Shown piece by piece: positions 7,605 through 45,390 of a stretch of DNA of 64,000 nt. Origin of the DNA: a virus. The translations under genes and the position numbers were made by a program. The DNA lies in IMG/VR virus record IMGVR_UViG_3300037116_000081, positions 1-64,000 of that record; one strand, given 5' to 3'. Below the pieces are notes generated by a model, which was not told the DNA's origin, ran no database searches, and saw only the letters and a program-made list of their open reading frames with translations. Within the stretch, counting starts at the first letter, position 1; the number at the start of each line of letters is the position of its first letter.

Positions 7605-8807
7605 ATGTACGGGTCCTTAGATAGCGCTCCCCTTGCGCCTCCGGATCCGCAATCGTCAACGCCAGCGAGCGCAGCGATCGCGAAAACTGGCCCTATCATT
7701 AAAGAGAAGATCCCCGCGGCGCCCGACACCGACACATCGACTAAGCAGACCATTGCGAAGATGTGCGAGTACATCGCGGCCGGCGCCTCCGATGACGTGT
7801 GCCAGTTATGGGCAAAGCAAGCGCGCGAACGTTGGGCTGGCCAGTTCAACCAAGTAGCGTCTGTAACCGGCCGAATGGTGCCGCAAACCTCAGGCGATTG
7901 TTGGGGCGTGTGGTGGATGGTGAAACACGCCGTCAAGTTCGCGAAGGACGAACCGCGGTTGTTTCAGATCGGTGAGCCCGATGCGCTCGATTTATTGATA
8001 GCGCCCGCGGTGCTCGTGCGTGAACAGGATCGCAAGGAAGATTGCGACGGCTTCACGATGCTGGTGTGCTGCCTACTCAAGATTCTGGGGATCTCATCGG
8101 TCATTGTGACGGTGGCGGCGGACCCATCCGATCCGGAACGCTGGTCGCACGTCTTCCCGATGGCTGAAGTGAACGGTGCGTATCTTCCAATGGACGCATC
8201 GCACGGAAAGTTCCCTGGCTGGATGGTTCCGCGCGATCACATCTCCCGATGGCAGGCTTGGGACCTCAACGGCAATCCAGTGCAGGCGTTTCCGTCACAG
8301 GCGAAGAACACGCTACACGGATATCTTCCACGCGGGGCGCCGATGCGGAAACGCGGGATGCGCGGACTCGGGCAGACGGACTATACATCAGTGGCGAGCT
8401 CCACGGGTGACTACCAAGTTTTCAGTGATGGCACAGTCTTTGATCCGAACGGCAATGTCGTTACAGATTTCAGCGCGTTGCCTAACTCGTTAACGACCCA
8501 GATTAACAGTGCCCTGAATCCGCTGGCCATCAGCACGCCCGCAACGCCAACTGCCACCAGCGCGTCCGGAACCCCTACCAACTGGACCGGCATTATCAAC
8601 AGTATCGTTTCAGGCGGATTGAAAGCAGCGCAGCTTGCGACGTTGCCTCCGGGCTATGTGATCGGCGCGAATGGCCAGCCCGTGTACACAGGGCAGTCCG
8701 CGGCGAATGCACAACTCACATCCAGCTTCGCGAGTATCCTGCCGTGGTTAGCGATTGGATTGGTTGCGGCTGTAGTGGTCATTCCACTTCTTGGGAGCAA
8801 GCAGTGA
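7605..8807 (+). CDS. Transglutaminase-like cysteine protease with RGLGQ site and C-terminal anchor
   Basis: 400 residues from the ATG at 7605; a TTG at 7560 is the alternative but would precede the predicted transcript start. Residues about 85-235 have the order of a transglutaminase-like catalytic core: Cys in KEDCDGFTMLVCCLL, His in RWSHVFPMAEVNG, Asp in YLPMDASHG. Then come KRGMRGLGQTDYTS, a Ser/Thr/Ala-rich stretch, and a membrane helix (LPWLAIGLVAAVVVIPLLG) ending in SKQ. It heads a row of proteins with the same RGLGQ-type motif, so it may process them and itself during particle maturation. That substrate link is inference. Confidence 0.7.
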   Translation: MYGSLDSAPLAPPDPQSSTPASAAIAKTGPIIKEKIPAAPDTDTSTKQTIAKMCEYIAAGASDDVCQLWAKQARERWAGQFNQVASVTGRMVPQTSGDCWGVWWMVKHAVKFAKDEPRLFQIGEPDALDLLIAPAVLVREQDRKEDCDGFTMLVCCLLKILGISSVIVTVAADPSDPERWSHVFPMAEVNGAYLPMDASHGKFPGWMVPRDHISRWQAWDLNGNPVQAFPSQAKNTLHGYLPRGAPMRKRGMRGLGQTDYTSVASSTGDYQVFSDGTVFDPNGNVVTDFSALPNSLTTQINSALNPLAISTPATPTATSASGTPTNWTGIINSIVSGGLKAAQLATLPPGYVIGANGQPVYTGQSAANAQLTSSFASILPWLAIGLVAAVVVIPLLGSKQ

Positions 8808-9557
8808 ATGTACGTCTCTTCAAGATCTTCCGTCTCGCGCTGCACTGGAGTAGCAGCGCGGGGAACAGTCTCGCGATCGCTTGGCGATATCTCCTCACCG
8901 CAGTCCATCAATCAGATAGTAACGGTTGGCGCATCGACTACTGTTGGAATTCTTGTAGCGTTAGGCACGGTTACGGGTCCGATTGGAGCGGCCATCGCTG
9001 GCTTGATCGCAGTTGGCTCGCTTATCGCCAACATGTTTCACGGCTGTGGGCAGACCTGCGTAGTCGCGACACAGGACGCGAACAAGATCGGCGCGTTGCT
9101 CGATCAGAATCAGGCAGCGTATATGAACGCCCCGGTTCACTACAAGAGCTTGCAAGCGGCGGCGCTAAACAACATCAACACGCTCGCGGCGGCATTGCAG
9201 CAAGCGTGCAGCGATCCATCTTTAGGGCAGGCTGGGCAGCGCTGCATCTCCGAAAGATTGGTCAGGCGTCCGTGTCCGAGCACGTTGAACGATTCGAATA
9301 TCGGCGGCGGGCAGATCAAGTTCTGCGATTACTGGAGCTTCTATTACGATCCGATCGCGAACGATCCGAATGTAGTTCCGGACCCCACGCCAGCTTCGTC
9401 GGGTCCAGCTTCAGCGGCGGTCTCTTCGGTGGGCTCCGCAATTTCTTCTGTGCTGCCTTCATCGGTCAGCAGTCTTTTGACCGGGAGCGTCTTTGGTCTT
9501 CCAGTGTGGCTGCTCGGCGCGGTGGCGCTCACGGCCTTGTGGGTGGCGAGCGAATGA
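8808..9557 (+). CDS. Virion-operon membrane protein, element-encoded N-terminus
   Basis: 249 residues. The ATG directly follows the previous stop; codons 5-20 are element E6 read in frame (SVSRCTGVAARG), and I see no later start. A Gly/Ala-rich hydrophobic helix (about 45-75), a cysteine-containing domain (CGQTCVVATQDANKIGALLD, CISERLVRRPCP), a Ser/Ala linker and a C-terminal helix with the FGLPVWLLG signature shared by its neighbours. Probably a membrane-anchored virion component. Confidence 0.6.
   Translation: MYVSSRSSVSRCTGVAARGTVSRSLGDISSPQSINQIVTVGASTTVGILVALGTVTGPIGAAIAGLIAVGSLIANMFHGCGQTCVVATQDANKIGALLDQNQAAYMNAPVHYKSLQAAALNNINTLAAALQQACSDPSLGQAGQRCISERLVRRPCPSTLNDSNIGGGQIKFCDYWSFYYDPIANDPNVVPDPTPASSGPASAAVSSVGSAISSVLPSSVSSLLTGSVFGLPVWLLGAVALTALWVASE
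8836..8860. repeat. Palindromic junction element E6
   Basis: Stem CGCGCTGC/GCAGCGCG, loop ACTGGAGTA. It lies within the first codons of the gene at 8808. Confidence 0.85.
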
Positions 9558-9615: not shown

Positions 9616-10443
9616 GTGTTTCTAAAAGTACAAGCGGGGCTCTCCGGCATCGGCCAAACCGTTCTGATGCGTCAACCAGGCGGGCGCGTGATGCGCGTCC
9701 AAATGCCGATCGTGTTGGATAGGCCTCGGGGGATGCGTGGCTTAGGCGTTACGTGTCCCACGGGCTTGGTGCAGGCTGCAAACGGCGGCTGCATTGATCC
9801 TGGTTACGCTCCCAACAAAAATGTAGCGGCGGCAAGTCCCAAAGCCGTGACCTACGCATCGGCTCCCGGCTGCAACGTGGTGAACCTCGCATCGAACGAA
9901 TGCATGTTGGACGACGGGACAATCACGGGCTGCAACATCATCCAGCAGTGTGATTCGCTCACCGGCAACGCGAGATGTCAGTATGGGCCGTTCCCTGGCC
10001 AAGCTGCTGATCCAAGTTTGCCGTTCTGCTCTGGAAGCGGGCCGTCCGTTTCGTACACGCCGAATTTGAGTCTCACGAACCCGACAGGGCCGTCAACGCC
10101 GTTCACTCCCACGGCGCTTGCGCCGAATGCCGTTCCGGTAGGATCGAGCCCCACGGCGGCGCAGGTTAAAAGCCTGCTTGGGCAGACTCAGCCTACATCG
10201 TCAACGGCAGCGAGTTCGCCGGCGGCATCGCCAACACAGCCGAGTTCCCAAACGAATTTTCTCCAGCAACTCTTAGCCGGGCCGAATCCTCCAGCGGGCG
10301 GATCGACTACGGCGGTGGCGTCTTCGGATAGTTCGTTATTTAGCGGTTCGCTCGACGTGTTCGGTATGCAGATTCCATACTGGCTCATTGGTGTTGTGGT
10401 CGTCGGCGGCGGGATTCTCCTCATGAGCGGGGGCAAGAAATGA
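9616..10443 (+). CDS. Virion-operon protein with two Gly-Leu-Gly motifs and a tail anchor
   Basis: 275 residues from a GTG preceded by GGAGG at ideal distance. AGLSGIGQTVL near residue 8 and RGMRGLGVTCP near residue 40; then a Cys-rich domain (about 8 Cys, 40-140), a Thr/Pro/Ser/Ala-rich stalk, and a C-terminal helix with FGMQIPYWLIG and a GGKK end. Ends with an ATGA overlap to the next gene. Structural, probably stalk-like; function inferred from layout only. Confidence 0.65.
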   Translation: MFLKVQAGLSGIGQTVLMRQPGGRVMRVQMPIVLDRPRGMRGLGVTCPTGLVQAANGGCIDPGYAPNKNVAAASPKAVTYASAPGCNVVNLASNECMLDDGTITGCNIIQQCDSLTGNARCQYGPFPGQAADPSLPFCSGSGPSVSYTPNLSLTNPTGPSTPFTPTALAPNAVPVGSSPTAAQVKSLLGQTQPTSSTAASSPAASPTQPSSQTNFLQQLLAGPNPPAGGSTTAVASSDSSLFSGSLDVFGMQIPYWLIGVVVVGGGILLMSGGKK

Positions 10444-10727
10444 GACGCGGCTTTCGTGGTCTCGGTCAACCATCATCGCCTTTGCCGATGTCACCAGGTG
10501 GATTCTGTCCAACGCTCGGCGCTGTGTGTCCCTACGGCTATACGCTCGACGCGAGCAACTGTCCGAACTATCCATGTCAAGCCGCGGCGGTCGCTACGGC
10601 TACAACCGGAATCGATTTTTCGTTTCTCACAAATCCGGTGATGATTGGAACCATGTCCATTCCGACGTGGGCTATCGGGCTCGCCGTGATCGTGGGCGGC
10701 TACTTCCTGATGGGAGGCAAAAAATAA
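10440..10727 (+). CDS. Small RGLGQ tail-anchored protein
   Basis: 95 residues: MRRGFRGLGQPSS at the start, a short four-Cys region (GFCPTLGAVCPYGY, SNCPNYPCQ), DFSFLTNP, then SIPTWAIG and a membrane helix ending GGKK. It has the whole family architecture in miniature. Coupled to both neighbours. Confidence 0.7.
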   Translation: MRRGFRGLGQPSSPLPMSPGGFCPTLGAVCPYGYTLDASNCPNYPCQAAAVATATTGIDFSFLTNPVMIGTMSIPTWAIGLAVIVGGYFLMGGKK

Positions 10728-11335
10728 TGGCTAAGCAAGACGGCACGATGGGCGAAGTAATCAAGTGGGTTCTGATTTTGGGCGGCGGGTATCTCGCTTA
10801 CGAGTATTTCATTGCGCCGATGCTGGCCACGACTCTGGCGCCCACGACCGGCGTAACGCCAGCAGCTACAACCGTGACGGGCACACCGGTATCGAGCACG
10901 AATACGACGACGGCTACTCCGGTTACTGTGACGACGCCTCCTCCGCCTCCCGTCAATGCGTACCCACTTTCAAACACGATTCCGAATGCAACCGGGACCG
11001 CGGCTACTCTCGCATCAGCCTTGATTGCGCGAGCGACTTCAGACGGTGTTGCAAAGGGCGGATTGGTCAATGGAAGTATCGCCTACACTCCACAGCAGTG
11101 GAATTACATTTTCAACGAAATGAATCCCGGTAACACGAAGAACCTGCCTAGCTCTTCGCAGGCCATGAGCGCGGGCGATTACACACTCGCGCGGGCGACG
11201 GCGTTTGGACAAGCGGGATTGAGCGGGCTCGGACAACTGATGCGCGTCGGGCGAAATACTTTACGGACAGGCGGGCGTCAACCGATGCGAACAGGATATG
11301 TACGGGCAGGAACGCCAATGCGGAGGACCGGATGA
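10727..11335 (+). CDS. N-anchored virion-operon protein with C-terminal GLSGLGQ
   Basis: 202 residues, TAATG start. Here the order is reversed: a membrane helix (about 10-30) comes first, then a Thr/Pro-rich linker, a globular region, and AGLSGLGQLMRVGRN near residue 165 followed by an Arg-rich end. If the motif is a cleavage site, the basic tail would be released. Confidence 0.65.
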   Translation: MAKQDGTMGEVIKWVLILGGGYLAYEYFIAPMLATTLAPTTGVTPAATTVTGTPVSSTNTTTATPVTVTTPPPPPVNAYPLSNTIPNATGTAATLASALIARATSDGVAKGGLVNGSIAYTPQQWNYIFNEMNPGNTKNLPSSSQAMSAGDYTLARATAFGQAGLSGLGQLMRVGRNTLRTGGRQPMRTGYVRAGTPMRRTG

Positions 11336-11694
11336 GACTCTATAGAACTCCGATGCGTGGCTTTCGTGGATTAGGGCAGACGTATCAGACCGTCTCGACT
11401 GCTGCTGGCGACTATCAAGTAGTTACGGCCCCGGACGGAACAGTCACCACTTTTGACCCATCAGGCAACATCGTTTCTGGCGTTGCCGTGGGGCCGCTTC
11501 AAGCTGGCCAATCAGCGCTCGCGTTTTCTGCGTCAATCAATCCATCAGGCTCGGCGGCTCCGGCTTCACTCGCGTCTCTGTTTCCAGGAATGACTGGCAA
11601 TACAACTGTTGCTGGTGTGTCGGTCCCTTCGTGGCTCGTGCCGGTTGCTCTGATAGCTGGCGCGTTTTTCGTCTATAAGGCTTTTGGGAAATGA
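11332..11694 (+). CDS. Small RGLGQ tail-anchored protein
   Basis: 120 residues: PMRGFRGLGQTYQT at the N-terminus, then a TAAGDYQVV...DGTVTTFDPSGNIV segment also present in the protease gene (SSTGDYQVFSDGTVFDPNGNVV), then VSVPSWLVPVALI and a basic end. The shared segment suggests recombination between these genes. ATGA overlaps at both ends. Confidence 0.7.
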   Translation: MRLYRTPMRGFRGLGQTYQTVSTAAGDYQVVTAPDGTVTTFDPSGNIVSGVAVGPLQAGQSALAFSASINPSGSAAPASLASLFPGMTGNTTVAGVSVPSWLVPVALIAGAFFVYKAFGK

Positions 11695-11921
11695 AGAATC
11701 CGGCTCCAACCCGTTTACGTGACGCCGATCCGCGCGGGCGCATGGACGTAGCTGCGTTTCGCTTCGCTGAGAACATGGCAGAAAAAGCAGGCGCGAAGGA
11801 ATTCTGGAATGCGGGCTTGGGTGATTTTGTCGAGACGGTGATTAACGGCACGGTGCCGGCAAAAGCAATCACAGGGCAGGATGTAGCGAAGGCGCTGGGT
11901 TTGGGAGGCAGAAAGCGGTAA
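11691..11921 (+). CDS. Small soluble protein in the virion operon
   Basis: 76 residues, basic ends, helical middle (VAAFRFAENMAEKAGAKEFW, DFVETVINGTVPAKA). It contains NAGLGDF, a weak match to the Gly-Leu-Gly motif, and no membrane helix. Function unknown. Confidence 0.6.
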   Translation: MKNPAPTRLRDADPRGRMDVAAFRFAENMAEKAGAKEFWNAGLGDFVETVINGTVPAKAITGQDVAKALGLGGRKR

Positions 11922-12436
11922 TGCCTTATTTCCGCACAGGAGCACGGATGCGGCGCGGCGTCGGCCAAATCGCTACGGCTACGCTTGGGCCGGCCGGAAC
12001 GGGCATCGCTCAATACGACGCGAGCGGCCGCTACTTGGGCGGGAGCACGATGATGGATGCGTATTGCGGTTCAAGCATCGGGCAGTTCTTCAGTCCGACT
12101 ACGTGCGCGATCCCGACTCCAGCGCAAATCACGGCTACGCAGACTGCGGAACTTGCGACTACTTCAGCTCCCCCAGCAGTGCAGGCGGCGGCGATCGCGG
12201 CGGGCAATGCGCTAGTTGCGCAAGACGCGGCAGCAAACCCGGCAAATTACCAACAGCAGATCGCGGCGTCGAATTGGCCGGAACTTTCAGCGCTGATCGG
12301 TCCCGCGGCGGTGGCTACGTTGTTTCCCGTCGATGTGACGGATCCGAATAATCCAATTCCCCAAGTCCCGTGGCTTCTGATCGGAATTGTAGTGGTGGGC
12401 TTCTCTGTCTTCTACGCATACGGAGGGAAGCATTGA
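11921..12436 (+). CDS. RGVGQ tail-anchored virion-operon protein
   Basis: 171 residues: ARMRRGVGQIATA near residue 12, then an Ala/Thr-rich domain, and a C-terminal helix introduced by VPWLLIGIVVVG and ending YGGKH. Same plan as its neighbours. Confidence 0.65.
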   Translation: MPYFRTGARMRRGVGQIATATLGPAGTGIAQYDASGRYLGGSTMMDAYCGSSIGQFFSPTTCAIPTPAQITATQTAELATTSAPPAVQAAAIAAGNALVAQDAAANPANYQQQIAASNWPELSALIGPAAVATLFPVDVTDPNNPIPQVPWLLIGIVVVGFSVFYAYGGKH

Positions 12437-12768
12437 GCTACATCCAATACACACCGAAAGCTCCACTCTCTACGTGCGTGACGAAGGTGCGTGGGATGGG
12501 GCAGGACGCGACTTCAACTTCGACGGACACCGTAACAGGGCTCTCGATTCCGAATCCGCTTACGATCTTCAGCAATCTTTTTTCATCGACCGACTTTTCA
12601 ACGTGGGGTATAGGTGAGTGGATCGTAATCGCGGGCGTCGGGTTTCTCGCGTTGAAACTCGTTACCGGTGTGCTCTCGGCAGGCAGCGCAGTAAAGAGCA
12701 CGGTTCGTAAGCGGCAGCGGCGAGCGAAGAAGCGGCAAGGGCTGCTGGACGATCTGAGGGATCTATGA
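12433..12768 (+). CDS. RGMGQ membrane protein with basic tail
   Basis: 111 residues from a TTG overlapping the previous stop, with GGAGGG six bases upstream. KVRGMGQDATS near residue 20; FSTWGIGEWIVIAG starts a membrane helix, then a strongly basic tail (RKRQRRAKKRQ). The tail would face the nucleic acid side. Its stop overlaps the mini-ORF start. Confidence 0.65.
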   Translation: MSYIQYTPKAPLSTCVTKVRGMGQDATSTSTDTVTGLSIPNPLTIFSNLFSSTDFSTWGIGEWIVIAGVGFLALKLVTGVLSAGSAVKSTVRKRQRRAKKRQGLLDDLRDL

Positions 12769-12842
12769 GACGACTGAGGGACACCCCGAAAGCTTCAACG
12801 CGCTGCTACTCCAGTGCAGCGCGAAACGGAGAATGTTCATGA
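12765..12842 (+). CDS. Mini-ORF spanning element E7
   Basis: 25 codons. Its ATG overlaps the stop of the gene before (ATGA) and its TGA overlaps the ATG of the gene after (ATGA), so it bridges the gap exactly while passing through E7. Confidence 0.55.
   Translation: MRRLRDTPKASTRCYSSAARNGECS
12799..12823. repeat. Palindromic junction element E7
   Basis: Stem CGCGCTGC/GCAGCGCG, reversed loop TACTCCAGT. Its downstream flank CGGAGAA supplies the SD for the gene at 12839. Confidence 0.88.
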
Positions 12843-13192
12843 GAGGATTCGGTAGCTACAGCAAAACTCCAACTCCATGGGGATGGGAATATTATCCCCC
12901 ACCGTACCGCTTTGCTTCACCGTCCACGGGGCCTAGCGGAATACGTCCGACTTACGCGAGCGCGCGATACATGGGCATGACAACACGAGCGTTGAGCAAC
13001 CAGGGCGGCGGGCTCGGATGTGCGGGGCAGTGCGGTTGCGGTGGGACGTGCGGCATGGGGCAAGTGGATCTTTCGTTTCTGACGAATACGTTCAGCTTGG
13101 CGGGCTACCAGATTCCGGTCTGGATTGGGCTCATGGTTGGGATCGGCGCGGTCGCAATGTACAGCGGGTTGAGCAATAAAAAGAGACGATGA
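12839..13192 (+). CDS. Tail-anchored protein with MRGFG and GMGQ motifs
   Basis: 117 residues; I chose the second ATG because the element's GGAG is 7 bases upstream. MRGFGSYS, an aromatic/Pro stretch, a Gly/Cys cluster (CAGQCGCGGTCGMGQ), DLSFLTN, then YQIPVWIGL with a membrane helix and KKRR end. DLSFLTN is shared with 10440-10727. Confidence 0.65.
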   Translation: MRGFGSYSKTPTPWGWEYYPPPYRFASPSTGPSGIRPTYASARYMGMTTRALSNQGGGLGCAGQCGCGGTCGMGQVDLSFLTNTFSLAGYQIPVWIGLMVGIGAVAMYSGLSNKKRR

Positions 13193-13434
13193 CTTTAACG
13201 CTTTCACAAACGGCGCAACCTCAGATTTTTACCGATATGGGCTCGTATGCCCACGTCGGAGTGGGATTCATGGCCGGGTATCTTTCACCTGGCTGGGCGC
13301 TCGCGATTGCGGCGGCGTTCATCGGGTATCAATTGTCTCAGGTTTCGGCGGGCGTGCCCTGGGGACGGACGGGCGGGGAAGTGATCGAGTTTGCGTTAGG
13401 AGCTGCTATAGCGGCGCTGGTGGCAAAAAAATGA
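13189..13434 (+). CDS. Small hydrophobic membrane protein
   Basis: 81 residues with two hydrophobic helices (about 20-48 and 64-80) and a KK end. In position it closes the anchored-protein array. Unknown; holin-like size but with structural neighbours. Confidence 0.6.
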   Translation: MTLTLSQTAQPQIFTDMGSYAHVGVGFMAGYLSPGWALAIAAAFIGYQLSQVSAGVPWGRTGGEVIEFALGAAIAALVAKK

Positions 13435-14369
13435 AGCGGCGAAAAACCAATTCAGCAAAGTACGGGCGGCGGAATTCAAGCGGCGATACATCAACGGATG
13501 TTCGCAGCCCAACTTCAACTGAAGTGCGAAGCCCTACCAAGACTTCGACTGAAGCTTATACGCAAGGAAACTTCACGGCCACAGTAACGGGCGGCGCAGG
13601 AGCCGGTGCAACTACCAGCGTGACAATCAAACCGAACCGGGGCAGGCGTGATGCTTTCGCGATTTGCAAACGCACGCGCGGGAATCCGTCACGGTGGAAT
13701 CCACTCGTGCCACTCGATCCAATCTCGGTACTTTCGGCGATCGAAGGGCAGCGCGAGAAGATCGCGAAGAAGCTGTTCACGAAGAACGCCAAGAAAGCGC
13801 GGAAGAATCGATTCGGCAAAAAGCGCGTAGTGCTGCACATGAAGCGCGGCAAGTCCGGGAAGTTTGCGCAGCGGAAGAACAGGGGCAATCCCGTCATGGC
13901 GGCAGAGAAGCGCTATCAATCCTTCCACGGCCGGCCTAGCGAAGACTTGGTTAACGTGCGGACCACGCTGCATTCGCATGACGTGCTCGCGGGCATCGGC
14001 GATCTCCGCAAGCTGAAAATCAAATCCGCAAACGGTCACTGGAAAGTAACAGTGAAATTCTTGAAGCCTTACCCGATTCTATCGATGAACGAAGCCGCAA
14101 CCCAGCTTTACATCGAAGGGGGTGATCAATCCGTAGACTTGAGGGACTTCGGAATCAAAACTCCACACGAAAAAGAAATACTCGGTCACGTCACGGACGT
14201 GTGGTACTTCACAACGAAAGATCACTTACGACCGGAAGACGGCGGCACGGCGATCTACCACCACAAATTCGGAAAGATCAAGCCGACGATGATTTACGAC
14301 GTACCGAACCAGCTACTCGAATTCGCGGGTGGCGGCTACACTATCCCGGATGAAGGGATCGACCAATGA
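13431..14369 (+). CDS. Basic protein with conserved C-terminal domain
   Basis: 312 residues. Residues 1-80 are low complexity with repeated RSPT; 80-155 are very basic (KKLFTKNAKKARKNRFGKKR); 155-312 form a folded domain (MAAEKRYQSFHGRPSEDLV, DVLAGIGDLRKLKIKS, TQLYIEGGDQSVDL). Probably binds DNA in the particle. Family not recognised. Confidence 0.6.
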   Translation: MKRRKTNSAKYGRRNSSGDTSTDVRSPTSTEVRSPTKTSTEAYTQGNFTATVTGGAGAGATTSVTIKPNRGRRDAFAICKRTRGNPSRWNPLVPLDPISVLSAIEGQREKIAKKLFTKNAKKARKNRFGKKRVVLHMKRGKSGKFAQRKNRGNPVMAAEKRYQSFHGRPSEDLVNVRTTLHSHDVLAGIGDLRKLKIKSANGHWKVTVKFLKPYPILSMNEAATQLYIEGGDQSVDLRDFGIKTPHEKEILGHVTDVWYFTTKDHLRPEDGGTAIYHHKFGKIKPTMIYDVPNQLLEFAGGGYTIPDEGIDQ

Positions 14370-14620
14370 AAAAGGCGCGCAAGAATATCAGCTTTAGAAA
14401 GTACAAAAAAGAGTTGAACCGCAAGCACTCTCCGGCGAACGCGAGACTCTATCAGTCATTCCGAAAAGAGGAGCAACGTATCGTGAGAGCGCGACGAAAG
14501 AAGGCGGCAAAATCCAATCCGCCAAAGACCCGCAAAGGCAAGACGGGACGCTGGATCAAAGCCAAAGCTGTGAAGGTGACACGAGTCAAAGGAAAGCTTG
14601 TAGTGCAGGTGAAACGGTGA
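14366..14620 (+). CDS. Small highly basic protein
   Basis: 84 residues, about one third Lys/Arg, with ARRKKAAKSNPPKTRKGKTG. Likely nucleic-acid binding, such as a core or packaging protein. ATGA and GTGA overlaps with its neighbours. Confidence 0.6.
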   Translation: MKKARKNISFRKYKKELNRKHSPANARLYQSFRKEEQRIVRARRKKAAKSNPPKTRKGKTGRWIKAKAVKVTRVKGKLVVQVKR

Positions 14621-15981
14621 GTATCGTATCCTTCATCCCGAAAGCCCTGCGCAAGGACAAGCCACCAGTCCCGATGATTAGTCTGTGTCAAACAACGGCG
14701 CGGCTACCGGACGGCTGGAGAGCGGCGGCACAAGCCTGGAAAGACGCGGCGGACAACCCCGGCGACATCGAGCACGTTATTGTAACGGACGATCCAGCCT
14801 TCAAGGCGGAGCCCATATTCGCGGATACGAAGATCGGCGTGAACAAGGGCCGGCATTCCGCGGTTGACGGCTGGAACACTTCAGCGCAACTCTCAACGGG
14901 AAAGTTCCTCATCACGCTTGCGGATGACTGGTTCCCCTGCCCTCACTGGGATACAGAATTTCTGAAGCTCATCCCGGATCTTGACGGCGAGTACGTTTTG
15001 GAAGTGGACACGGGAGGGAATCCCGGCCTGCTGACATTCTCGCTTCTGACTCGGAAGTATTACGAGCGCTACGGGTATTTTTTCTGGCCTCAGTATCTCG
15101 GCATGTACGCTGACAACGAATTCACGATTGTGGCGCGGCGTGACGGCGTGGTGATCGACGCGAAGCATTTATTCTGCGAACATCGGCACCCGCTCTACGG
15201 CTTCGGCGAGATGGACGAGACTCACAAGCATCAACACCGGCGCGAAGCCTTCGAGGTAGGCGAAGAGGTTTATCGGCGGCGGCTTTTGCATCTCGGGTTC
15301 GCCCAGCAGTATGTTCCGCCCCGCAGTTATTCGATCGCGATTTGTATGCCGGGTGAATCGTTCAAACCGGACTGGGTAGCCAACACTCTGAAGCTCACGA
15401 ACTACATTGCGGCGGAAGCGAGTGTTTTTCCGATGCCTGGCTACGCTCCAAATCCGCACATCGTTCGGCAGGGCATGTCAAGCGAAATCCAAAAGATAGA
15501 GCCGATGCCGGATCTGGTGTTGTGGATTGACCACGATAACCTGGTCGCCCCGATTCACTTCGCGCGGCTGTACGGGGTCCTGAAGGAACATCCGGAGATC
15601 GACGGCGTAGCAGGCTGGTGTTATTGGGGGCAAGAAGAAGGGCCACTCAACATCTCGTGTGGCGTTTATGGCGATGGGCGCCGGCATTATTTCAGCGAAG
15701 CCGAATTGCGGAACGGGCCGGAACTCAGGGAGATTGATTTCACCGGCTTCCCGTGCTTTCTGATGCGCGGCGAGACGCTGAAGAAAGCCGGCAAGAATGC
15801 TTTCGCGCCGATATCGGATGAAACTTTCCCGTACGGTTTCGTTCCGGAAGACCTCGCGTTTTGCAGACGGGCGAAAGAAGCGGGATGTAGGTTCATGGTG
15901 GACCGGACGGTTTACGTCCCCCATCGGAAGGTCCAAACGTTGGAGCCCAGGGAAGGGAATAAAAAGCTTTCAGTTGCGTAG
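14617..15981 (+). CDS. Tandem family-2-like glycosyltransferase
   Basis: 454 residues, GTG start. Two GT-A-like halves: residues about 15-220 (ISLCQTTARLPDGW, TLADDWFPCPHWD) and about 235-454 (YSIAICMPGESFK, DLVLWIDHDNLV, FVPEDLAFCRRAKEAGC). ADD and DHD are candidate metal/nucleotide sites. In phages such enzymes modify virion proteins, DNA or host surface sugars. The location among structural genes favours virion or surface glycosylation. Confidence 0.65.
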   Translation: MSIVSFIPKALRKDKPPVPMISLCQTTARLPDGWRAAAQAWKDAADNPGDIEHVIVTDDPAFKAEPIFADTKIGVNKGRHSAVDGWNTSAQLSTGKFLITLADDWFPCPHWDTEFLKLIPDLDGEYVLEVDTGGNPGLLTFSLLTRKYYERYGYFFWPQYLGMYADNEFTIVARRDGVVIDAKHLFCEHRHPLYGFGEMDETHKHQHRREAFEVGEEVYRRRLLHLGFAQQYVPPRSYSIAICMPGESFKPDWVANTLKLTNYIAAEASVFPMPGYAPNPHIVRQGMSSEIQKIEPMPDLVLWIDHDNLVAPIHFARLYGVLKEHPEIDGVAGWCYWGQEEGPLNISCGVYGDGRRHYFSEAELRNGPELREIDFTGFPCFLMRGETLKKAGKNAFAPISDETFPYGFVPEDLAFCRRAKEAGCRFMVDRTVYVPHRKVQTLEPREGNKKLSVA

Positions 15982-16021
15982 ATGCCCCGGTCAATCGGGA
16001 GCCCTAAAAGGAGAAAGTAGT

Positions 16022-16498
16022 ATGAAGACAAAACATCTCATCGGTTTTCTGGCGGCATTGCTAGTGCTCGCGTTCTTCAGTGTCGCCTTGGTTGTTCACG
16101 ATCAAATTTCCATCCGGACATTGGCCGTGTTTCTCGGATTCGCCTCTTTCGCGTTCGGAACCGTCACTGTGACGTATCAGGTCCCGATCCAAGGAACCAG
16201 CGCGCCCACTGCGGCACAGGTCTACGGGCTCGGACTAATCACGGCTCAAGTCAATAATGCCGACACGGACGCTTCCATCACGATCACGCATAACTTTGGT
16301 CTTGATGCAAACGAATTGGCGGCGCTCTACCCGTTTGTCATCATGAACCAGGATTCAGGCGGAACCACGTTGCCTGTCTACGAAGTTTCGAAGGCTACCA
16401 ACTCGGTGACGATCACGAAGGCGTCAACGTCCGGGACTGGTGGAACCTTCGACGTGTGTATCTGGCGCCCGCCGACGAATCAGAGGCCGCGCGTTTAA
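16022..16498 (+). CDS. Membrane-anchored beta-rich protein
   Basis: 158 residues with a strong SD (AAAGGAGAAAG). Two N-terminal hydrophobic helices (about 5-25 and 33-50), then a beta-rich domain (TVTVTYQVPIQGTSAP, DASITITHNFG, VYEVSKATNSVTITKAS). Likely a virion protein on a membrane. Confidence 0.6.
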   Translation: MKTKHLIGFLAALLVLAFFSVALVVHDQISIRTLAVFLGFASFAFGTVTVTYQVPIQGTSAPTAAQVYGLGLITAQVNNADTDASITITHNFGLDANELAALYPFVIMNQDSGGTTLPVYEVSKATNSVTITKASTSGTGGTFDVCIWRPPTNQRPRV

Positions 16499-16523
16499 GG
16501 CGGCCTGACGCAAGGGAAAACAC

Positions 16524-17390
16524 ATGGCGCAGACCACACGAGAAAGAATTATCGCAAACCGAGGGAAGCGGAAAATGTCTGCAAAGCAAATCCGCATCTT
16601 CGGCACGCGCGCGCAAAAGGCGCGGCTCCGCGGAACGCGGAAGCGCGCAAACTCTTCGCGGTCGAATCATCGCCGTCGATCGCGATCCAACAAGGGCGAG
16701 ATCATAGGTTACACGTTTGCTCAACCGGCAAGCAGAAAGAACAGAGGTAGGAAGATGGCAGCTACAAAGACAAAACGTAGACGCCGTGCCCGCTCCGGTG
16801 GGCATCGCGTTAACCGTCGTCGAAACACTGGGCGTCGGAGAAATTTCGTTCACCATCGCCGTCGCGGCACCATGCGGCGCATGAACCGCGGGCGTCGTCG
16901 GAATCCCGGCATGCTAGGAACGGGGCGAATCTCATCCATCGCGATCAATGCAGTATTCGTGATCGTCGGTGCGGTGGGCTCGAAGCTCCTGGCCCAAATG
17001 GTCCTCGGGACAAACAACACCGGCGTAGTCGGATACGCGGCGAATGCGATCGCGGGCGGCGCAATGTGGTTCGTGGCTGAAAAAGTCATGCACAACACAG
17101 ACGCAGCCAATGGCATCATCGCAGGTACCGCGGTCGAAATCATCCTTCGGTTGATTAACGACTACACGCCGTTCGGTTCCTACGTGGCGGGCCTCGGCAT
17201 GGGCGATTACCAGGCGCAAGCTTGGCTGACTCCCCAGGTCCTGGTTGACCCGTACAAAAACGCCAACATTCAGTGGCCTCAAGGGTTACTCTCGGCCGTA
17301 ACCCCGCCTCCCGCGGCAGTCATGCCGGCTTCGGTCGGCATTGCAAGCGGGATGGGGGATCTCTACGGCGGGAAGTCTTCGCTGTACTAA
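16524..17390 (+). CDS. Arg-rich DNA-binding membrane protein
   Basis: 288 residues. Residues 1-135 are extremely Arg-rich (RRRRARSGGHRVNRRRN, HHRRRGTMRRMNRGRRR). Residues about 140-215 hold two to three helices with Gly/Ala faces, then a Pro-rich end containing AGLGMGDYQ and ASGMGDLYGG, which resemble the operon's Gly-Met-Gly motif. An internal ATG at 16755 with upstream AGAGGTAGG could give a shorter product. It could tether the genome to a membrane or shell. Confidence 0.6.
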   Translation: MAQTTRERIIANRGKRKMSAKQIRIFGTRAQKARLRGTRKRANSSRSNHRRRSRSNKGEIIGYTFAQPASRKNRGRKMAATKTKRRRRARSGGHRVNRRRNTGRRRNFVHHRRRGTMRRMNRGRRRNPGMLGTGRISSIAINAVFVIVGAVGSKLLAQMVLGTNNTGVVGYAANAIAGGAMWFVAEKVMHNTDAANGIIAGTAVEIILRLINDYTPFGSYVAGLGMGDYQAQAWLTPQVLVDPYKNANIQWPQGLLSAVTPPPAAVMPASVGIASGMGDLYGGKSSLY

Positions 17391-17407
17391 AAAGTTGAAG
17401 TAAGCGG

Positions 17408-17440
17408 GCGCGGCTCTTAATCCAGCGGGAGGGGCCGCGC
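17408..17440 (+). terminator. GC-rich hairpin before the capsid-candidate gene
   Basis: Inverted repeat GCGCGGC/GCCGCGC in the 99-base gap after 17390. There is no U-run, so it may be an mRNA-stabilising or processing hairpin that sets apart a highly expressed gene. Confidence 0.35.
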
Positions 17441-17489
17441 GCGCAAAATCCCGCTGGGCAAAATCTTTACGAAAGAAGGAAAATTTCTC

Positions 17490-18173
17490 ATGGCATATGG
17501 CGCAAACGGCCAGATCCCAACTGCTGAAGAAGCTCAGGGCAGAAACACAAACTCGATCATGCAGGGCTTTGTTGATCGTGGCCCCTGGCAGTATTGGGAC
17601 GACATCTATTTCGCAAATGCGACGGTAGTTCCGCCGCAAATCCAAATCTTTCAAAACGCCATTGGGCAACAGAACCCCCAAGGCGCAGTAGGCGGTCCCA
17701 CCAACGGCGTGGCGAAAACCAAGCTCCAAACGAACTTGACTCGCCCCGCTTCGAGCGGGCTCCCGCCTCCCCGTTGTCTTTTGCTTCTGGCCATTGGGTT
17801 CGAGTTCTCCTCGAACTTCTTGAAGCCGGATATCGACGCGATTCTCAACTCCTGTTACATGGAGTTCCGCATCGACGACAAGATTTTCCACGAAGGGTGG
17901 CTCGTAACCTTTCCGGCCGGTGCGGGGCTCATGGGAGTCACGCAAAATTCGGGCGAGTCCGTGTACACGTGCGGATTCCCGGCTCCCCAGGCTCAACGGC
18001 GGTACGCTGACTGGGCCAAGTACATTGCTCCGCTTCAGCAGTTCTCCATGGTGCTGAATTTCGGCGGCGGCGGCGTGGCGGCCCCGACTATCGGAACCGG
18101 ATTGACGACCATCAACTATCCTGGCAACCTACGAGTTGTCTTGGATGGCTTGACAGATCGGTCGGTTCAGTAA
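17490..18173 (+). CDS. Candidate major capsid or shell protein
   Basis: 227 residues, SD AGAAGGAAA. Beta-rich throughout: IGFEFSSNFLKPDIDAIL, YMEFRIDDKIFHEGWLV, FPAGAGLMG, IAPLQQFSMVLNFGG, NLRVVLDGLTDRSVQ. Its own hairpin upstream and a terminator-like hairpin downstream suggest separate, high expression, as usual for a major structural protein. The pattern could fit a jelly-roll fold, but I recognise no specific family; confidence in the capsid role is low. Confidence 0.4.
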   Translation: MAYGANGQIPTAEEAQGRNTNSIMQGFVDRGPWQYWDDIYFANATVVPPQIQIFQNAIGQQNPQGAVGGPTNGVAKTKLQTNLTRPASSGLPPPRCLLLLAIGFEFSSNFLKPDIDAILNSCYMEFRIDDKIFHEGWLVTFPAGAGLMGVTQNSGESVYTCGFPAPQAQRRYADWAKYIAPLQQFSMVLNFGGGGVAAPTIGTGLTTINYPGNLRVVLDGLTDRSVQ

Positions 18174-18223
18174 CACACTAGGGCAACGGTTCAAGCGGTC
18201 GTACTCGAATCGCAAGAGAACCG

Positions 18224-18259
18224 GGGGCTGGTGGATCTTTCGCGGACCTCATCAGCCCC
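18224..18259 (+). terminator. Terminator-like hairpin after the capsid candidate
   Basis: GGGGCTGGTG pairs with CATCAGCCCC over a 16-base loop, followed within a few bases by a TTAAAAGTTTTATT stretch. Plausible intrinsic or partial terminator. Confidence 0.45.
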
Positions 18260-18285
18260 GCTCACTTAAAAGTTTTATTCGTCTT

Positions 18286-18307
18286 GCGCTGCTCTGGAAT
18301 GCAGCGC
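18286..18307. repeat. Palindromic junction element E8
   Basis: Stem GCGCTGC/GCAGCGC, loop TCTGGAAT. The flank GGAGAAAGG is the SD for the 53-residue gene at 18325. Confidence 0.85.
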
Positions 18308-18324
18308 GGAGAAAGGTCGATCAA

Positions 18325-18486
18325 ATGTGTGGATGCAACAGCGCTCTTACACCGCAATGGGGCGGGGTGTCTTTGCCGACCGATCCGATGGAGCGTGCCC
18401 GCTATGTAAGTGCGCTGCTAAAGGGATACACGCAACTCCAGATTGACGAAGATCCGATCCTGAAATATTTGCAGGTACACGGATGA
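18325..18486 (+). CDS. 53-residue hypothetical protein
   Basis: Starts MCGCNSALTPQWGG, where the cysteines could be lipidated or bind metal, then a helical segment (DPMERARYVSALLKG). Its SD comes from element E8 and its stop overlaps the start of the next mini-ORF, which supports a real gene. Confidence 0.55.
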   Translation: MCGCNSALTPQWGGVSLPTDPMERARYVSALLKGYTQLQIDEDPILKYLQVHG

Positions 18487-18548
18487 AACGAAATTCGAAT
18501 GCGCTGCTACTCCAGTGCAGCGCGAAACGGAAAATGGAGAGCGAGTAA
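18483..18548 (+). CDS. Mini-ORF spanning element E9
   Basis: 21 codons from an ATG overlapping the previous stop (ATGA) through E9 to a TAA overlapping the next ATG (TAATG). Confidence 0.55.
   Translation: MKRNSNALLLQCSAKRKMESE
18501..18523. repeat. Palindromic junction element E9
   Basis: Stem GCGCTGC/GCAGCGC, loop TACTCCAGT. Downstream GGAGAGCGAG is the SD for the gene at 18548. Confidence 0.88.
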
Positions 18549-19204
18549 TGTACGTCACTTCCGACATGGCATGTAACCAGCCGAACAGCGCTACTCCAAT
18601 GAGTCAAGCGCGGATCACGGCACAGAACAACCGTGTCGCGAGAGTCGGCAGTCAATTCGAAAACGGCAACGCAATCTTGAGCAACCTGGTTCAGAAACTC
18701 GGCGGGATAGGAATCGGGAACCCTCCGGGGACTTCACCACGAACCACTACCCCAACATTTGTGAATTCGCCGTCATGCTCAACCGCGGTACTCACTGGTG
18801 GCGGAATCTACGGCCGGCGTCTTCCGGTTCTTGGCGGACCAACTGGCCAGCCGATGTTGCAACCTGACGGGACGTGGGCACTCCCCGCGACTCCGGGCGC
18901 CCCTTCTCTCGCTACAGTGGGAGCCTCAACGAACGGCGCAAGTTTAGTAAGCACGGCTCCCGCGGTCCCTGCGGTTGCGAACGCGGCAACCATCGGATTA
19001 GAGAACAACGTCCCTGGTGGATCGAGCCCCGGAATAACTCCTACGACTTTAGGCGGCGGCGGACTATATGACGGAACGGGTTACTGCGCGGCAAACCGTC
19101 CGAGCATTCCAGCGCAACCGGGTGGGGCAGACGTCAATCCGATGTGGCTATTAGGTGGATTACTTTTCATCGTCGGCATAAGCGCAATGATGGGCAAAAA
19201 CTGA
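18548..19204 (+). CDS. Tail-anchored stalk-like virion-operon protein
   Basis: 218 residues. Helical N-terminus with MSQARITAQNNRVARVG, LGGIGIGNPPG near residue 57, long Thr/Pro/Gly/Ala region, then NPMWLLGGLLFIVG and an MMGKN end. It has the same end structure as the array at 9.6-13.2 kb, so is probably the same class of anchored protein. Confidence 0.6.
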   Translation: MYVTSDMACNQPNSATPMSQARITAQNNRVARVGSQFENGNAILSNLVQKLGGIGIGNPPGTSPRTTTPTFVNSPSCSTAVLTGGGIYGRRLPVLGGPTGQPMLQPDGTWALPATPGAPSLATVGASTNGASLVSTAPAVPAVANAATIGLENNVPGGSSPGITPTTLGGGGLYDGTGYCAANRPSIPAQPGGADVNPMWLLGGLLFIVGISAMMGKN

Positions 19205-19636
19205 ATGAGACTCGCAAACCTCACCGATTACCAGTTGCAGGGCTGTAACCGTTGGCAACTTCCAAACGGAGCCATCAAGCTCGCTATTGCTCGAGTGATC
19301 CCGTTTTATCAGTTCATCAACGCTACCCAAGTTTTGAACGATCTCGAAGTAGGCACACCCCCAGATCACGACTTCGTGTGCAAGGTTGTCAGCTCAACCG
19401 GAGTAACACCAGGGACTTTAGTGCAGATTCAGTGGCCTGATGGCCGCTACTTGTCAAATCCGGGCGTCGATTTCTTCAGCTTTGTCGGCACCGGGCGGCG
19501 CGGAAGGTTGATTTCCCCGCATAAATTCATGCCCAAAAATTCGAAAATACGCATCAATCTGGATAATTCCCTGGTGGCGTCGAATGCCAACATGGAGATA
19601 TATTTTGAAGGCGTAATTCTGGTGGACATGGTATGA
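19205..19636 (+). CDS. Beta-sandwich virion protein, single domain
   Basis: 143 residues. Beta-rich (HDFVCKVVSSTGVTPGTLVQ, SKIRINLDNSLVASNANMEI) and closing with YFEGVILVDM, the same kind of final strand as its neighbours. First of the beta-protein run; ATGA overlap with the next. Confidence 0.55.
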   Translation: MRLANLTDYQLQGCNRWQLPNGAIKLAIARVIPFYQFINATQVLNDLEVGTPPDHDFVCKVVSSTGVTPGTLVQIQWPDGRYLSNPGVDFFSFVGTGRRGRLISPHKFMPKNSKIRINLDNSLVASNANMEIYFEGVILVDMV

Positions 19637-20559
19637 CAGGGAATCCATACGCGCCGTCCTGGATGGGCTACACGCCCGTCATTGCGGGAGTCGAAGACTT
19701 CGAATTCGATCTCGACTTACAACCCGTTGCGGTCCCGGCCGGCTCGTTTGTTCTTGGGACTGCGCTCGCGGTTGACGTTGACGCGGATTATCTCGTCAGA
19801 GAGATGCAGTTTTTCGTTACCGCGGTCACGATTGACGGCGGAGCTGCGCCAGCCACGGCTTTAGCTTCTGATATCCGCGTGCGCATCCGAGATGGACAGG
19901 GCAGGCTGTTTACATCCGACTTCATTCCGATAGCGGATCTAAGCGGGCCGCTCTGTCCACCGTGGCCAGTACGGCGCGGTTCGGTGCTTCTGATCGACTA
20001 CCAGAACATCAATACGACCGCCTCAGAAATCGCCACAGTCTGGATGCTGCTGAAGGGCTGGAAACGGAATCCATGTCCCGGCACGAAGGCTTTCACCCCT
20101 CCGTACGTCCCGATGTATCGGCAATACCCGACACCGCAACCGGGGACCGAATTTGAAGACTTTGAATATCCCTTCACGTTCACCGAACCCGGCGCGATCG
20201 ATCTTCTGAAAATCCCATTGCAGACGGATAACGACGCGGATTTCTGGTGGTGCGGAATCTCAGGGGATTGGAACACGGCTAACAACGATGTCGCTGTAGT
20301 CGGAAGTGTGGGCGTCACGTTTTACGACGCGATCGGCTTGCCTATGATGCAAGCGAGACTCTTGAATCCGTGGGGCTCACTGGTTGGACCGTTGTTCCGC
20401 GAGTCCGTCTTTTCCTCAGGCGGCGGGAGACCCGCTGGCTTCTTGCCTGCGATCTTCATTCCGAGGGGCGGGGTTATCCAGGTGGATATGAGTTTCGGCC
20501 AAGCTGCGACGTTGCGGTTCTCGCTTCGCGGGAAGAAAATCTACGGAGCCTGCAAATGA
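19633..20559 (+). CDS. Two-domain beta-sandwich virion protein
   Basis: 308 residues with two copies of one domain. Copy 1 (about 15-145) has YLVREMQFFVTAVTIDGG, VRIRDGQGRLFTSDFIPI, VRRGSVLLIDYQN and VWMLLKGWKR. Copy 2 (about 165-305) has DADFWWCGISG, PAIFIPRGGVIQVDMSF and RFSLRGKKIYG. The pattern of a hydrophobic strand then a G-x-K end recurs in the following genes. Probably spike, vertex or decoration proteins. Confidence 0.6.
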   Translation: MTGNPYAPSWMGYTPVIAGVEDFEFDLDLQPVAVPAGSFVLGTALAVDVDADYLVREMQFFVTAVTIDGGAAPATALASDIRVRIRDGQGRLFTSDFIPIADLSGPLCPPWPVRRGSVLLIDYQNINTTASEIATVWMLLKGWKRNPCPGTKAFTPPYVPMYRQYPTPQPGTEFEDFEYPFTFTEPGAIDLLKIPLQTDNDADFWWCGISGDWNTANNDVAVVGSVGVTFYDAIGLPMMQARLLNPWGSLVGPLFRESVFSSGGGRPAGFLPAIFIPRGGVIQVDMSFGQAATLRFSLRGKKIYGACK

Positions 20560-21365
20560 TCGAGCGGCCACAGTGGTACAGCTTCTCTTATGTCAACACC
20601 GCTTTGGCGGCGGGCGCGCAGCGTCTTTATCAGGAGTTGACGCTCGACACTGACGCGCCGTTCCGAATGACAGGCGTTGCGGTGTACGTCTTCAATTCAG
20701 CAGGCGTTCCGCTAGGACCGGCGGGTAACGTTGGGGTGACGTTGCGGTTCACGATGCCGGATTTATCGTGGATTCAAAAACATCTCGACTCCGCGCAACT
20801 TGTGAATACCTACGACGCGCAAGCGGTTAATGGTGCGGGTGGTCTGACGGCTCCCTACTACGCTTACTTTTCTCCGCTCGGGAAAAACCTTTTCTATCAG
20901 ACAGGCTCGCGTATCGTGATTGACTTCGCGGAACTCGCGGGAATCACAGACGCCGTGGTGATGATTGTTTTCCTCGGGACCAAACTCTACGGCGATGGTT
21001 CGGTGTGGTGGCCGATTCATGACCCGACGAAACCAGCTCGGCCTTATATCGGTTACTCAGTGCAGTTCGATCCGACCAAACTTCCGTTGTATAACATTCC
21101 GTTGAGCATCAACCCGGATGCGGATTTCGCTTGGCAGTGCGGCGCCCAAACATCGCAACCCGCGGCGGCTCTTTCGCCGGTAGGGGCAATCCGGAACATC
21201 GGGATCAAGGTCAAAGACTGGACGGGAAAGTATTACATGAACGACTACATCCCGCTCGATCTGATCTTTGGCTTCGACAATTCTCAAACGCCCGGCTTGT
21301 TGTACCCTGAAATCTACATTCCGAAAAATCAATTGCTCTACATGGATCTGGAGACCTTGGGATAA
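20556..21365 (+). CDS. Two-domain beta-sandwich virion protein
   Basis: 269 residues. Domain 1 (about 5-145) ends VVMIVFLGTKLYGDGS; domain 2 (about 160-269) has NPDADFAWQCGAQ, IGIKVKDWTGKYYMNDYIPL, EIYIPKNQLLYMDLE and then stops without the usual last strand. The next ORF begins with FLFNNKIIGSGG, which looks like that missing strand, so the domain may be split over two genes. TAATG junction. Confidence 0.55.
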   Translation: MIERPQWYSFSYVNTALAAGAQRLYQELTLDTDAPFRMTGVAVYVFNSAGVPLGPAGNVGVTLRFTMPDLSWIQKHLDSAQLVNTYDAQAVNGAGGLTAPYYAYFSPLGKNLFYQTGSRIVIDFAELAGITDAVVMIVFLGTKLYGDGSVWWPIHDPTKPARPYIGYSVQFDPTKLPLYNIPLSINPDADFAWQCGAQTSQPAAALSPVGAIRNIGIKVKDWTGKYYMNDYIPLDLIFGFDNSQTPGLLYPEIYIPKNQLLYMDLETLG

Positions 21366-28387: not shown

Positions 28388-28546
28388 ATGACACTACAGG
28401 TCTGTGACGTATGCCGATTAGTAGACGGAGACTTGTCAGTGAAGTTGTGCGACTGGTGCCAATCCTGTAAAGCGTGGATATGTCAGAAGGACTGGAATAA
28501 CTGGCCCCGGCGCTCGCTCGCGGCTATTCGGAGAATGAGACAATGA
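28388..28546 (+). CDS. 52-residue zinc-binding protein
   Basis: CDVC, CDWCQSC and a later Cys give a compact zinc site, followed by a Trp/Arg-rich end. Its stop overlaps the lysozyme start (ATGA). Function unknown. Confidence 0.5.
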   Translation: MTLQVCDVCRLVDGDLSVKLCDWCQSCKAWICQKDWNNWPRRSLAAIRRMRQ

Positions 28547-29163
28547 ACCCCCTCGGCACACCAGCTTACTTACCAGGCATCGACGTTTCGCACTTCCAGG
28601 GAGTCATAGACTGGCAGCGCGTGAAAGCGGCGGGCATCGGATTCGCATTTATCAAGGCGACGGATGGGACAGGCTTTGTGGACCCGCAACTGAACTACAA
28701 TGCTCTTGCTTGCCAAGCGCTGAGTATCCCGTTCGGGCTTTACCATTTCTTCCGGCCCACCGCGGACTCTGCGTCACAGGCTCAGTTTTTCCTGGCCAAC
28801 ACCAAGCCCTATACCCCGTTGCTTCCGCCTGCGCTTGATCTGGAACTCGGCCCGGTGACAACGAGTCAAGCGGCTACATGGCTCGACATCGTAGACGTGG
28901 CGCTTGGCCGCGAATCTCTGGTGTACACTGCCCCGGCTTTCGCGGCCGAGAATTTTAACGGCGAAAACTCAGGACTGATCAGCGTCTATCCCCTCTGGAT
29001 TGCAGAGTACACAACCAAACCTGCCCCAACTGTGCCGGCCGCGTGGGAAGATTGGGAATTCTGGCAGCACACCCCGAGTGGACAAGTTGACGGAGTACCG
29101 AATGCAGTAGACTTAGATTGGTTCCATGGAACAGCCGACGATTTAAGGGCATGGGTGAAATGA
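28543..29163 (+). CDS. GH25 muramidase (endolysin)
   Basis: 206 residues. GIDVSHFQGVIDWQRVKAAG, GFAFIKATDGTGFVDPQLNYN, FGLYHFFRP, PALDLELG, LWIAEYTTKPAP and FWQHTPSGQVDG are the landmarks of GH25 lysozymes; the DxE in PALDLELG is catalytic. It cleaves the glycan strands of peptidoglycan at lysis. No cell-wall-binding domain. Distinct from the GH24 enzyme at 43250. Confidence 0.9.
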   Translation: MNPLGTPAYLPGIDVSHFQGVIDWQRVKAAGIGFAFIKATDGTGFVDPQLNYNALACQALSIPFGLYHFFRPTADSASQAQFFLANTKPYTPLLPPALDLELGPVTTSQAATWLDIVDVALGRESLVYTAPAFAAENFNGENSGLISVYPLWIAEYTTKPAPTVPAAWEDWEFWQHTPSGQVDGVPNAVDLDWFHGTADDLRAWVK

Positions 29164-34960: not shown

Positions 34961-34962
34961 TT

Positions 34963-35181
34963 CTAGGCCGTGGGTGTTGCGGGCTTCGCCGCGGCGGTTT
35001 TTGCCGCTATCGCTGCCTGAAGTCCTTGAATGGCCGTCATGGCCGCAGTGTCATTGACGTCCGCCTGGGCGAGCACCATAATGGTAGTGCTGCCGTCCGG
35101 ATGCACCAAGCTAAGAATCAGGTTCACGATCCCCGGAGCCTGACCGATCAATGTTGTGATGATTGGCAATATCAAGCCCAT
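34963..35181 (-). CDS. Small hydrophobic cassette protein (copy 1)
   Basis: 72 residues: a hydrophobic helix (LILPIITTLIGQAPGIVNLI), then DGSTTIMVLAQADV and an Ala-rich end. Closely matches 45174-45389. Confidence 0.6.
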   Translation of the reverse strand: MGLILPIITTLIGQAPGIVNLILSLVHPDGSTTIMVLAQADVNDTAAMTAIQGLQAAIAAKTAAAKPATPTA

Positions 35182-41623: not shown

Positions 41624-41624
41624 T

Positions 41625-42136: not shown

Positions 42137-42152
42137 GTTAGGCTCACTTTCA

Positions 42153-45021: not shown

Positions 45022-45022
45022 G

Positions 45023-45172: not shown

Positions 45173-45173
45173 T

Positions 45174-45389: not shown

Positions 45390-45390
45390 G

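Follow-up and report, generated by a model that had tools for sequence, protein, structure and literature searches.

Shared membrane anchors in a metagenomic virus record point to a tailless phage with a probable internal membrane, distantly related to SSIP-1

The DNA stretch analyzed here (the window) comprises the first 64,000 nucleotides (nt) of IMG/VR record IMGVR_UViG_3300037116_000081, which is 85,924 bases long. Between positions 9616 and 19204 it encodes a row of proteins that end in a single hydrophobic helix with a Pro-x-Trp at the membrane boundary. An earlier reading of the letters alone (the sequence-only reading) suggested that these ends indicate either a particle containing a membrane or a shared sorting signal, and we asked which of the two the locus supports. 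We conclude, with a probability of roughly 0.83, that window positions 1 to ~42,000 (half A) represent a tailless bacterial virus that has an internal membrane and a circular genome of ~42 kilobases (kb) and is a distant relative of Salisaeta icosahedral phage 1 (SSIP-1), and that the shared tails anchor its virion proteins in this membrane. Tailless phages that contain an internal membrane are known already; what appears new here is the lineage and a proposed two-ended protein address, and no earlier description of the relatives of half A or of such an address was found in the literature, judged from titles and abstract openings.

All eight anchors quoted in the sequence-only reading were found at the C-termini of open reading frames (ORFs) on the plus strand. 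Six of them occur within 9616-19204, as had been claimed: IPYWLIG...SGGKK (quoted as MQIPYWLIG; 10372-10440, in ORF 9616-10443), IPTWAIG...GGKK (quoted as SIPTWAIG; 10659-10724, in 10440-10727), VPSWLVP (quoted as VSVPSWLVP; 11623-11691, in 11332-11694), VPWLLIG...YGGKH (12365-12433, in 11921-12436), IPVWIGL...NKKRR (quoted as QIPVWIGL; 13112-13189, in 12833-13192) and NPMWLLGG (19136-19201, in 18548-19204). The other two, LPWLAIG (8739-8804, in 7605-8807) and LPVWLLG (9498-9554, in 8808-9557), are upstream of 9616. The Pro-x-Trp signature held for six of the eight, two being Pro-Trp with no intervening residue, and the short basic end held for seven, since 8808-9557 ends in VASE. Two further helix-bearing ORFs, at 12370-12768 and 29677-30210, carry no Pro-x-Trp. 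In an alignment with a related locus (L009), the GTG start codon at 9616 is opposite an in-frame Met.

Relatives of half A were found with the 227-amino-acid (aa) protein encoded at 17490-18173 as the query, which returned 12 viral contigs and one contig of a metagenome-assembled genome (MAG). The anchored block was present in 10 relatives. From the structural blocks of half A and these 10, delimited by hand, 71 ORFs with a C-terminal transmembrane helix were picked automatically; some are perhaps spurious, and common descent links many of them, so that the rows are not independent. Of the 71 anchors, 25 had P-x(0-2)-W at the membrane boundary, whereas random 17-mers taken from other parts of these proteins gave a mean of 3.4. 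This count is conservative because an overlap filter had removed three window anchors (8808, 10440 and 11332) and because the scored segment missed one row in which PYW is visible. A boundary Trp was present in 42 of the 71, and 36 had a net charge of at least +2 over the last eight residues. Many anchors of distant relatives have lost the P-x-W.

The strongest link to a known particle came from the first anchored protein (7605-8807, plus strand), a candidate transglutaminase-like cysteine peptidase. Cys147, His182 and Asp197 were invariant in seven sequences and probably form its catalytic Cys-His-Asp triad; a G-x-G between the domain and the tail was also invariant, and the linker of the window protein reads RGLG (8361-8375). 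The family profile matched SSIP-1 gp34 (hhalign 95.5%, E 1.5e-8), which was also its sole match in the whole SSIP-1 genome (E 4e-9), and the clustered gp34-like family matched gp34 with E 1.3e-10. SSIP-1 gp34 is annotated as structural, contains Transglut_core (8.9e-7) and carries RGMG and a C-terminal helix. According to passages in reviews, from which our background on the SSIP-1 particle is drawn, the particles of SSIP-1 and of SPV1 have internal membranes (PMC8459092, PMC6356626, PMC6260650). That the first anchored protein is homologous to a structural protein of an internal-membrane phage therefore favors the membrane-containing particle of the sequence-only reading.

Other features of SSIP-1 agree with this assignment. 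It has a circular double-stranded DNA genome of 43,788 bases, and its gp34, like the half-A protein, is encoded early in the structural block. It also has small helix-tailed proteins, one of which (gp39) ends in NPWVLGG...KKGQ, and its invertase is matched by a resolvase of 4 of the 11 genomes that we clustered. Ten SSIP-1 proteins have a C-terminal helix, and three of them (gp34, gp41 and gp53) are annotated as structural, so that in SSIP-1 such anchors are not confined to non-virion proteins. Motifs comparable to the RGMG of gp34 occur in gp37 (RGLG) and gp53 (PGMG). A passage of a 2019 review states that the SSIP-1 genome resembles hardly anything in GenBank (PMC6356626), and SSIP-1 still stands among the unclassified double-stranded DNA phages, with no formal family; the 11 metagenomic genomes supply it with distant relatives. 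The part recognizably in common is the anchored transglutaminase-like protein together with the habit of anchoring a wall hydrolase. In tblastn searches SSIP-1 gp34 also gave weak matches to a human faecal phage scaffold (L060, MT839222.1, 428-928, E 3e-4) and to a Geoglobus pleomorphic virus (BK065156.1, 7845-8078, E 1e-3).

Further support for a membrane in the particle came from a peptidoglycan hydrolase of the virion-entry kind encoded at 29677-30210 (plus strand), with a C-terminal helix at 30154-30207. The wall hydrolase domains to which it belongs also occur in tape measure proteins, in injection transglycosylases and in endolysins associated with the head. Each of the 11 genomes encodes a helix-tailed hydrolase: seven were lysozyme-like, of the 29677-30210 kind, three were SLT and one was M23. 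The assignments were made by PHROGs for six of the seven lysozyme-like proteins and by Pfam for two of the three SLT proteins, and for the remainder by phmmer to these. SSIP-1 gp54 is likewise SLT-like (E 0.0054, below the cut-off) and has a C-terminal hydrophobic segment. Because three unrelated enzymes carry the same kind of tail, these hydrolases are the clearest sign that the tail serves as a targeting module. In an internal-membrane virus, single-helix tails would place the transglutaminase-like protein, the hydrolase and several small proteins in the membrane beneath the capsid, and the anchored hydrolase would open the wall at entry. Virion-borne wall-cutting enzymes have a precedent in PRD1 protein P7.

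A wall hydrolase with a membrane helix could also serve lysis, and the anchored proteins might be absent from the particle and function solely within the infected cell, whether as holins, in lysis or in membrane remodelling; that gp34, gp41 and gp53 alone among the 10 helix-tailed SSIP-1 proteins have a structural annotation would fit this as well. We consider it unlikely, since the domains of the window hydrolase occur in tape measure, injection transglycosylase and head-associated proteins, SSIP-1 gp34 is annotated as structural, and half A has a separate GH25 lysozyme. The latter is encoded at 28543-29163 (E 8.9e-41) and has orthologues in 5 of the 11 genomes.

The tailless reading of half A depends on separating it from the rest of the record. 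We delimited half A (1-42000, no strand assigned) by relatives closing at 33-45 kb, by the distribution of a hairpin and by repeats at the junction; it is apparently a separate tailless virus, and the sequence from 42 kb onward (half B) a tailed phage. Half B is coded on the minus strand and contains a terminase match at 83668-84903 (phrog_2, E 4.5e-21; the sole phrog_2 match in the record) and a tape measure match at 59514-63506 (Pfam TMP_3, E 7.3e-6, below the TMP_3 cut-off); its portal and capsid were assigned by inspection. Relatives of the half-B capsid protein, with up to 98% identity, occur on separate contigs, the larger of which are 32-48 kb. Positions 41623-41938 match the record end (85609-85924) at 95.6%, and 42180-42338 match the record start (1-159) at 93%; these repeats, common to both halves and the record ends, mark the junction. 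No end overlap was found in the 85,924-base record or in the half-B relatives G007 and G008.

Alternatively, all 86 kb of the record could belong to a single tailed phage in which the anchored block is an accessory module. The single contig, and the stretches that the halves have in common at 72-96% identity, speak for it; nevertheless we set it aside as very unlikely, since half-A relatives circularize without a terminase, the half-A capsid candidate was missing from all 10 searched records related to half B, and 41,900-46,900 matches G007 and G008 at 74-96% and had no match in half-A relatives. The constant-loop hairpins, too, numbered 22 in half A, one in 42-53.5 kb and none in the remainder of the record. 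Two viruses are thus joined in the record, most likely by assembly, with a real fusion as the alternative, and the 86 kb record is not to be taken as one virus. The halves also have accessory genes in common, in the same order and at ~72% identity (870-1910 with 42152-43186, and 34439-35643 with 44626-45849), which suggests exchange between viruses sharing a host. The hairpins themselves span window positions 343-41451 (22 sites), look intergenic and have a near-constant loop, ACTGGAGTA, on stems that vary yet still pair. The same hairpins occur at 21 sites in G004 (L009, L013 and L014), where overlapping loci may double-count a few; distinct stems numbered 10 in half A and 11 in G004, against shuffled means of 0.25 and 0.1. 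Hardly any were found in the remaining half-A relatives, in half B or in SSIP-1.

At least seven of the nine large viral relatives of half A look like closed circles of 33-45 kb. The relatives span 32,955-44,983 bases and have end overlaps, which were exact over 67-127 nt in six (G001-G004, G006 and G018), exact over 40 nt in G020 and 98.8% identical over 171 nt in G005. The overlap of G019 was only 146 nt at 98.6% (the comparison began after its first 108 bases), and that of the MAG contig was 20 nt. Half A itself is unclosed in the record. The MAG contig (G017:C292, L052-L054; 41,049 bases) is a whole-looking relative binned in the Phycisphaerales MAG palsa_1353, and it was the only match among 84,980 bacterial and archaeal species (one genome per species). 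It is a possible host link or a misbinning; the binning may be wrong because the contig looks like a whole virus, and we claim no host. Rfam at gathering thresholds gave no match in window 1-43,000.

The 227-aa protein (17490-18173, plus strand) is the candidate major capsid protein of half A. Two AlphaFold models (pLDDT, the predicted local distance difference test, 59.0 and 60.5; predicted template modelling score, pTM, 0.62 for the second) predicted a jelly roll with low confidence. When Foldseek matches were rescored, the SPV1 coat protein (6oj0) ranked first for both models, with Z 6.9 over 123 residues and Z 7.0 over 137 residues, in a tool for which Z below 8 may reflect merely a common arrangement. 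The rows below 6oj0 were mostly jelly-roll capsids, as was the BFVD list, in which rank 2 was I1ZBH9 (211 aa), of the same length as SSIP-1 gp46 and possibly that protein. Foldseek gave no PDB match below E 0.001, a PDB sequence search returned nothing useful, and tblastn against the phage collection found no match to the candidate. We regard it as likely, though unproven, that this is a jelly-roll capsid protein; an SSIP-1-like virus would be expected to have two single jelly-roll capsid proteins, and one candidate was seen here. SPV1 (Portogloboviridae) has a single jelly-roll coat, a circular double-stranded DNA genome and a glycosyltransferase gene, as well as an internal membrane and a nucleoprotein core. 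Unlike the half-A relatives it has a genome of 20 kb and an archaeal host; no sequence similarity to it was found, and its description mentions no anchored wall hydrolase.

How such a virus would take up its DNA is a separate point, as no packaging motor was recognized. Terminase phrog_2 was absent from six of six half-A relatives and HerA (PF01935) from nine of nine viral half-A relatives, and none of the families common to at least 4 of the 11 genomes shows a Walker A motif consistently. The very basic proteins noted in the sequence-only reading are indeed so: Lys plus Arg against Asp plus Glu is 57/29 in 13431-14369, 33/3 in the small protein at 14366-14620, and 55/9 in 16524-17390, which has internal hydrophobic stretches (16929-16991); all three are on the plus strand. 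These proteins and the basic ends of the anchored proteins may bring the circular genome to the membrane, where it would be enclosed as the capsid forms. A review passage proposes such enclosure for Corticovirus PM2, in which the circular genome would be enclosed while membrane and capsid form, not pumped in, and membrane proteins are a template for the capsid (PMC6356626). PM2 differs in its 10 kb genome and double jelly-roll capsid protein. Tectivirus PRD1 also carries a wall-cutting enzyme, P15, in the virion, according to the same review (PMC6356626); unlike half A it has a linear genome, the packaging ATPase P9 and a double jelly-roll capsid. FLiP and the Odin group are presented as lacking a packaging ATPase in a passage of another article (PMC6260650). 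Should our reading be true, half A would allow the idea of a 40 kb virus that lacks a recognizable packaging motor to be tested.

P-x-W is only part of the signal in the anchored proteins; a stronger one is R-G-[LMFVI]-G, which accompanies a basic peptide at the end away from the helix. In a broader form, [RKSHQ]G[LMFVI]G, the motif was present in 49 of the 71 helix-tailed ORFs as compared to 36 of the 186 remaining ORFs in these blocks (Fisher 1.8e-13), with a mean of 9.7 and a maximum of 18 in shuffles; in half B it occurred in 7 of 58 ORFs. Among the 47 proteins with a body long enough to compare, the first motif residue was Arg in 37, and the 15 residues ahead of the motif were more basic than the body in 46. 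The window anchors show it as SGIGQ (9643-9657) and RGLGV (9736-9750) in 9616-10443, RGLGQ in 10440-10727 (10455-10469) and in 11332-11694 (11365-11379), RGVGQ (11954-11968) in 11921-12436 and RGFGS (12842-12856) in 12833-13192, and the hydrolase carries RGFGD (29707-29721). The membrane protein at 12370-12768 (plus strand), whose start is uncertain, has RGMGQ (12490-12504), a helix at 12616-12684 and a long basic end. A mirror-image protein at 10727-11335 (plus strand) has an N-terminal helix (10757-10825), SGLGQ near the C-terminus (11222-11236) and then a basic tail (+8); in several orthologues of such N-terminal-helix proteins the tail is +4 to +10. Since both orientations place the motif and the basic stretch away from the helix, helix and basic peptide stand at opposite ends of the protein.

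The motif may be a cleavage site or a binding site. A tentative scheme, which we hold to be possible but rather less than probable, is that the lineage marks its membrane proteins with a two-ended address, the helix occupying one terminus and R-G-[LMFVI]-G plus a basic peptide the opposite one, whichever way round. In this scheme the anchored transglutaminase-like peptidase would trim virion proteins, itself included, at the motif during maturation, and the basic ends would gather the circular genome at the membrane, enclosing the DNA without a packaging motor. If so, a short motif may be a maturation site.

The order of motif, helix and basic end resembles that of *-CTERM signals, and together with the P-x(0-2)-W of 25 anchors this would agree with the second suggestion of the sequence-only reading, a sorting signal of the exosortase, rhombosortase or sortase kind that is cut and transferred to the host surface. 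Signals of the *-CTERM type depend on a signal peptide at the N-terminus. Of the 49 motif-bearing anchored proteins, 0 had a hydrophobic 10-mer within the 45 residues that precede the motif, so that the tails do not behave as a cell-surface sorting signal. The *-CTERM models gave no match in 10 window proteins, the only sortase-related row being PdsO (E 0.017, far below its cut-off), and P-x-W is not retained in many anchors of distant relatives. We consequently rejected this explanation as highly improbable. By eye, the C-terminus of the minus-strand ORF at 39564-39977 resembles a PEP-CTERM signal (PEPSMLWFGVVIIAAILMRNG).

Several observations weigh against an internal-membrane virus related to SSIP-1, or against the details of our proposal. 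The half-A viruses are known here from their genomes alone. Of 22 gene families present in at least 4 of the 11 genomes, only the gp34 and resolvase families match SSIP-1; its ATPase gp40 matches no common family, nor do its 2319-aa structural protein gp43 and its integrase. SSIP-1 capsid proteins gp45 and gp46 have no sequence similarity to the half-A candidate, the model of which is weak (mean pLDDT 60.5, pTM 0.62; Z ~7 being within the range of common arrangements). The window transglutaminase-like protein has no Pfam family on its own. In SSIP-1 alone the G-x-G motif was not significantly tied to a C-terminal helix (3/10 versus 9/47, p = 0.42). SSIP-1 also differs in that its cultivated host, Salisaeta sp. 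SP9-1, is from hypersaline water. A PDB sequence search with the transglutaminase-like profile returned nothing useful, and tblastn against the phage collection found no match to the window protein. Neither Pfam nor PHROGs assigned a family to the capsid candidate, to the beta-rich proteins described below or to most anchored proteins.

The remaining genes of the block are mostly conserved. Gene clustering found three families in all 11 genomes: a 506-aa protein (5925-7445, minus strand), the basic core protein at 13431-14369 and a beta-rich family. A glycosyltransferase-like protein (14617-15981, plus strand) was present in 7 of the 11 genomes by clustering. The beta-rich family comprises three plus-strand ORFs (19205-19636, 19633-20559 and 20556-21365; together 19205-21365) and possibly represents vertex or spike proteins.

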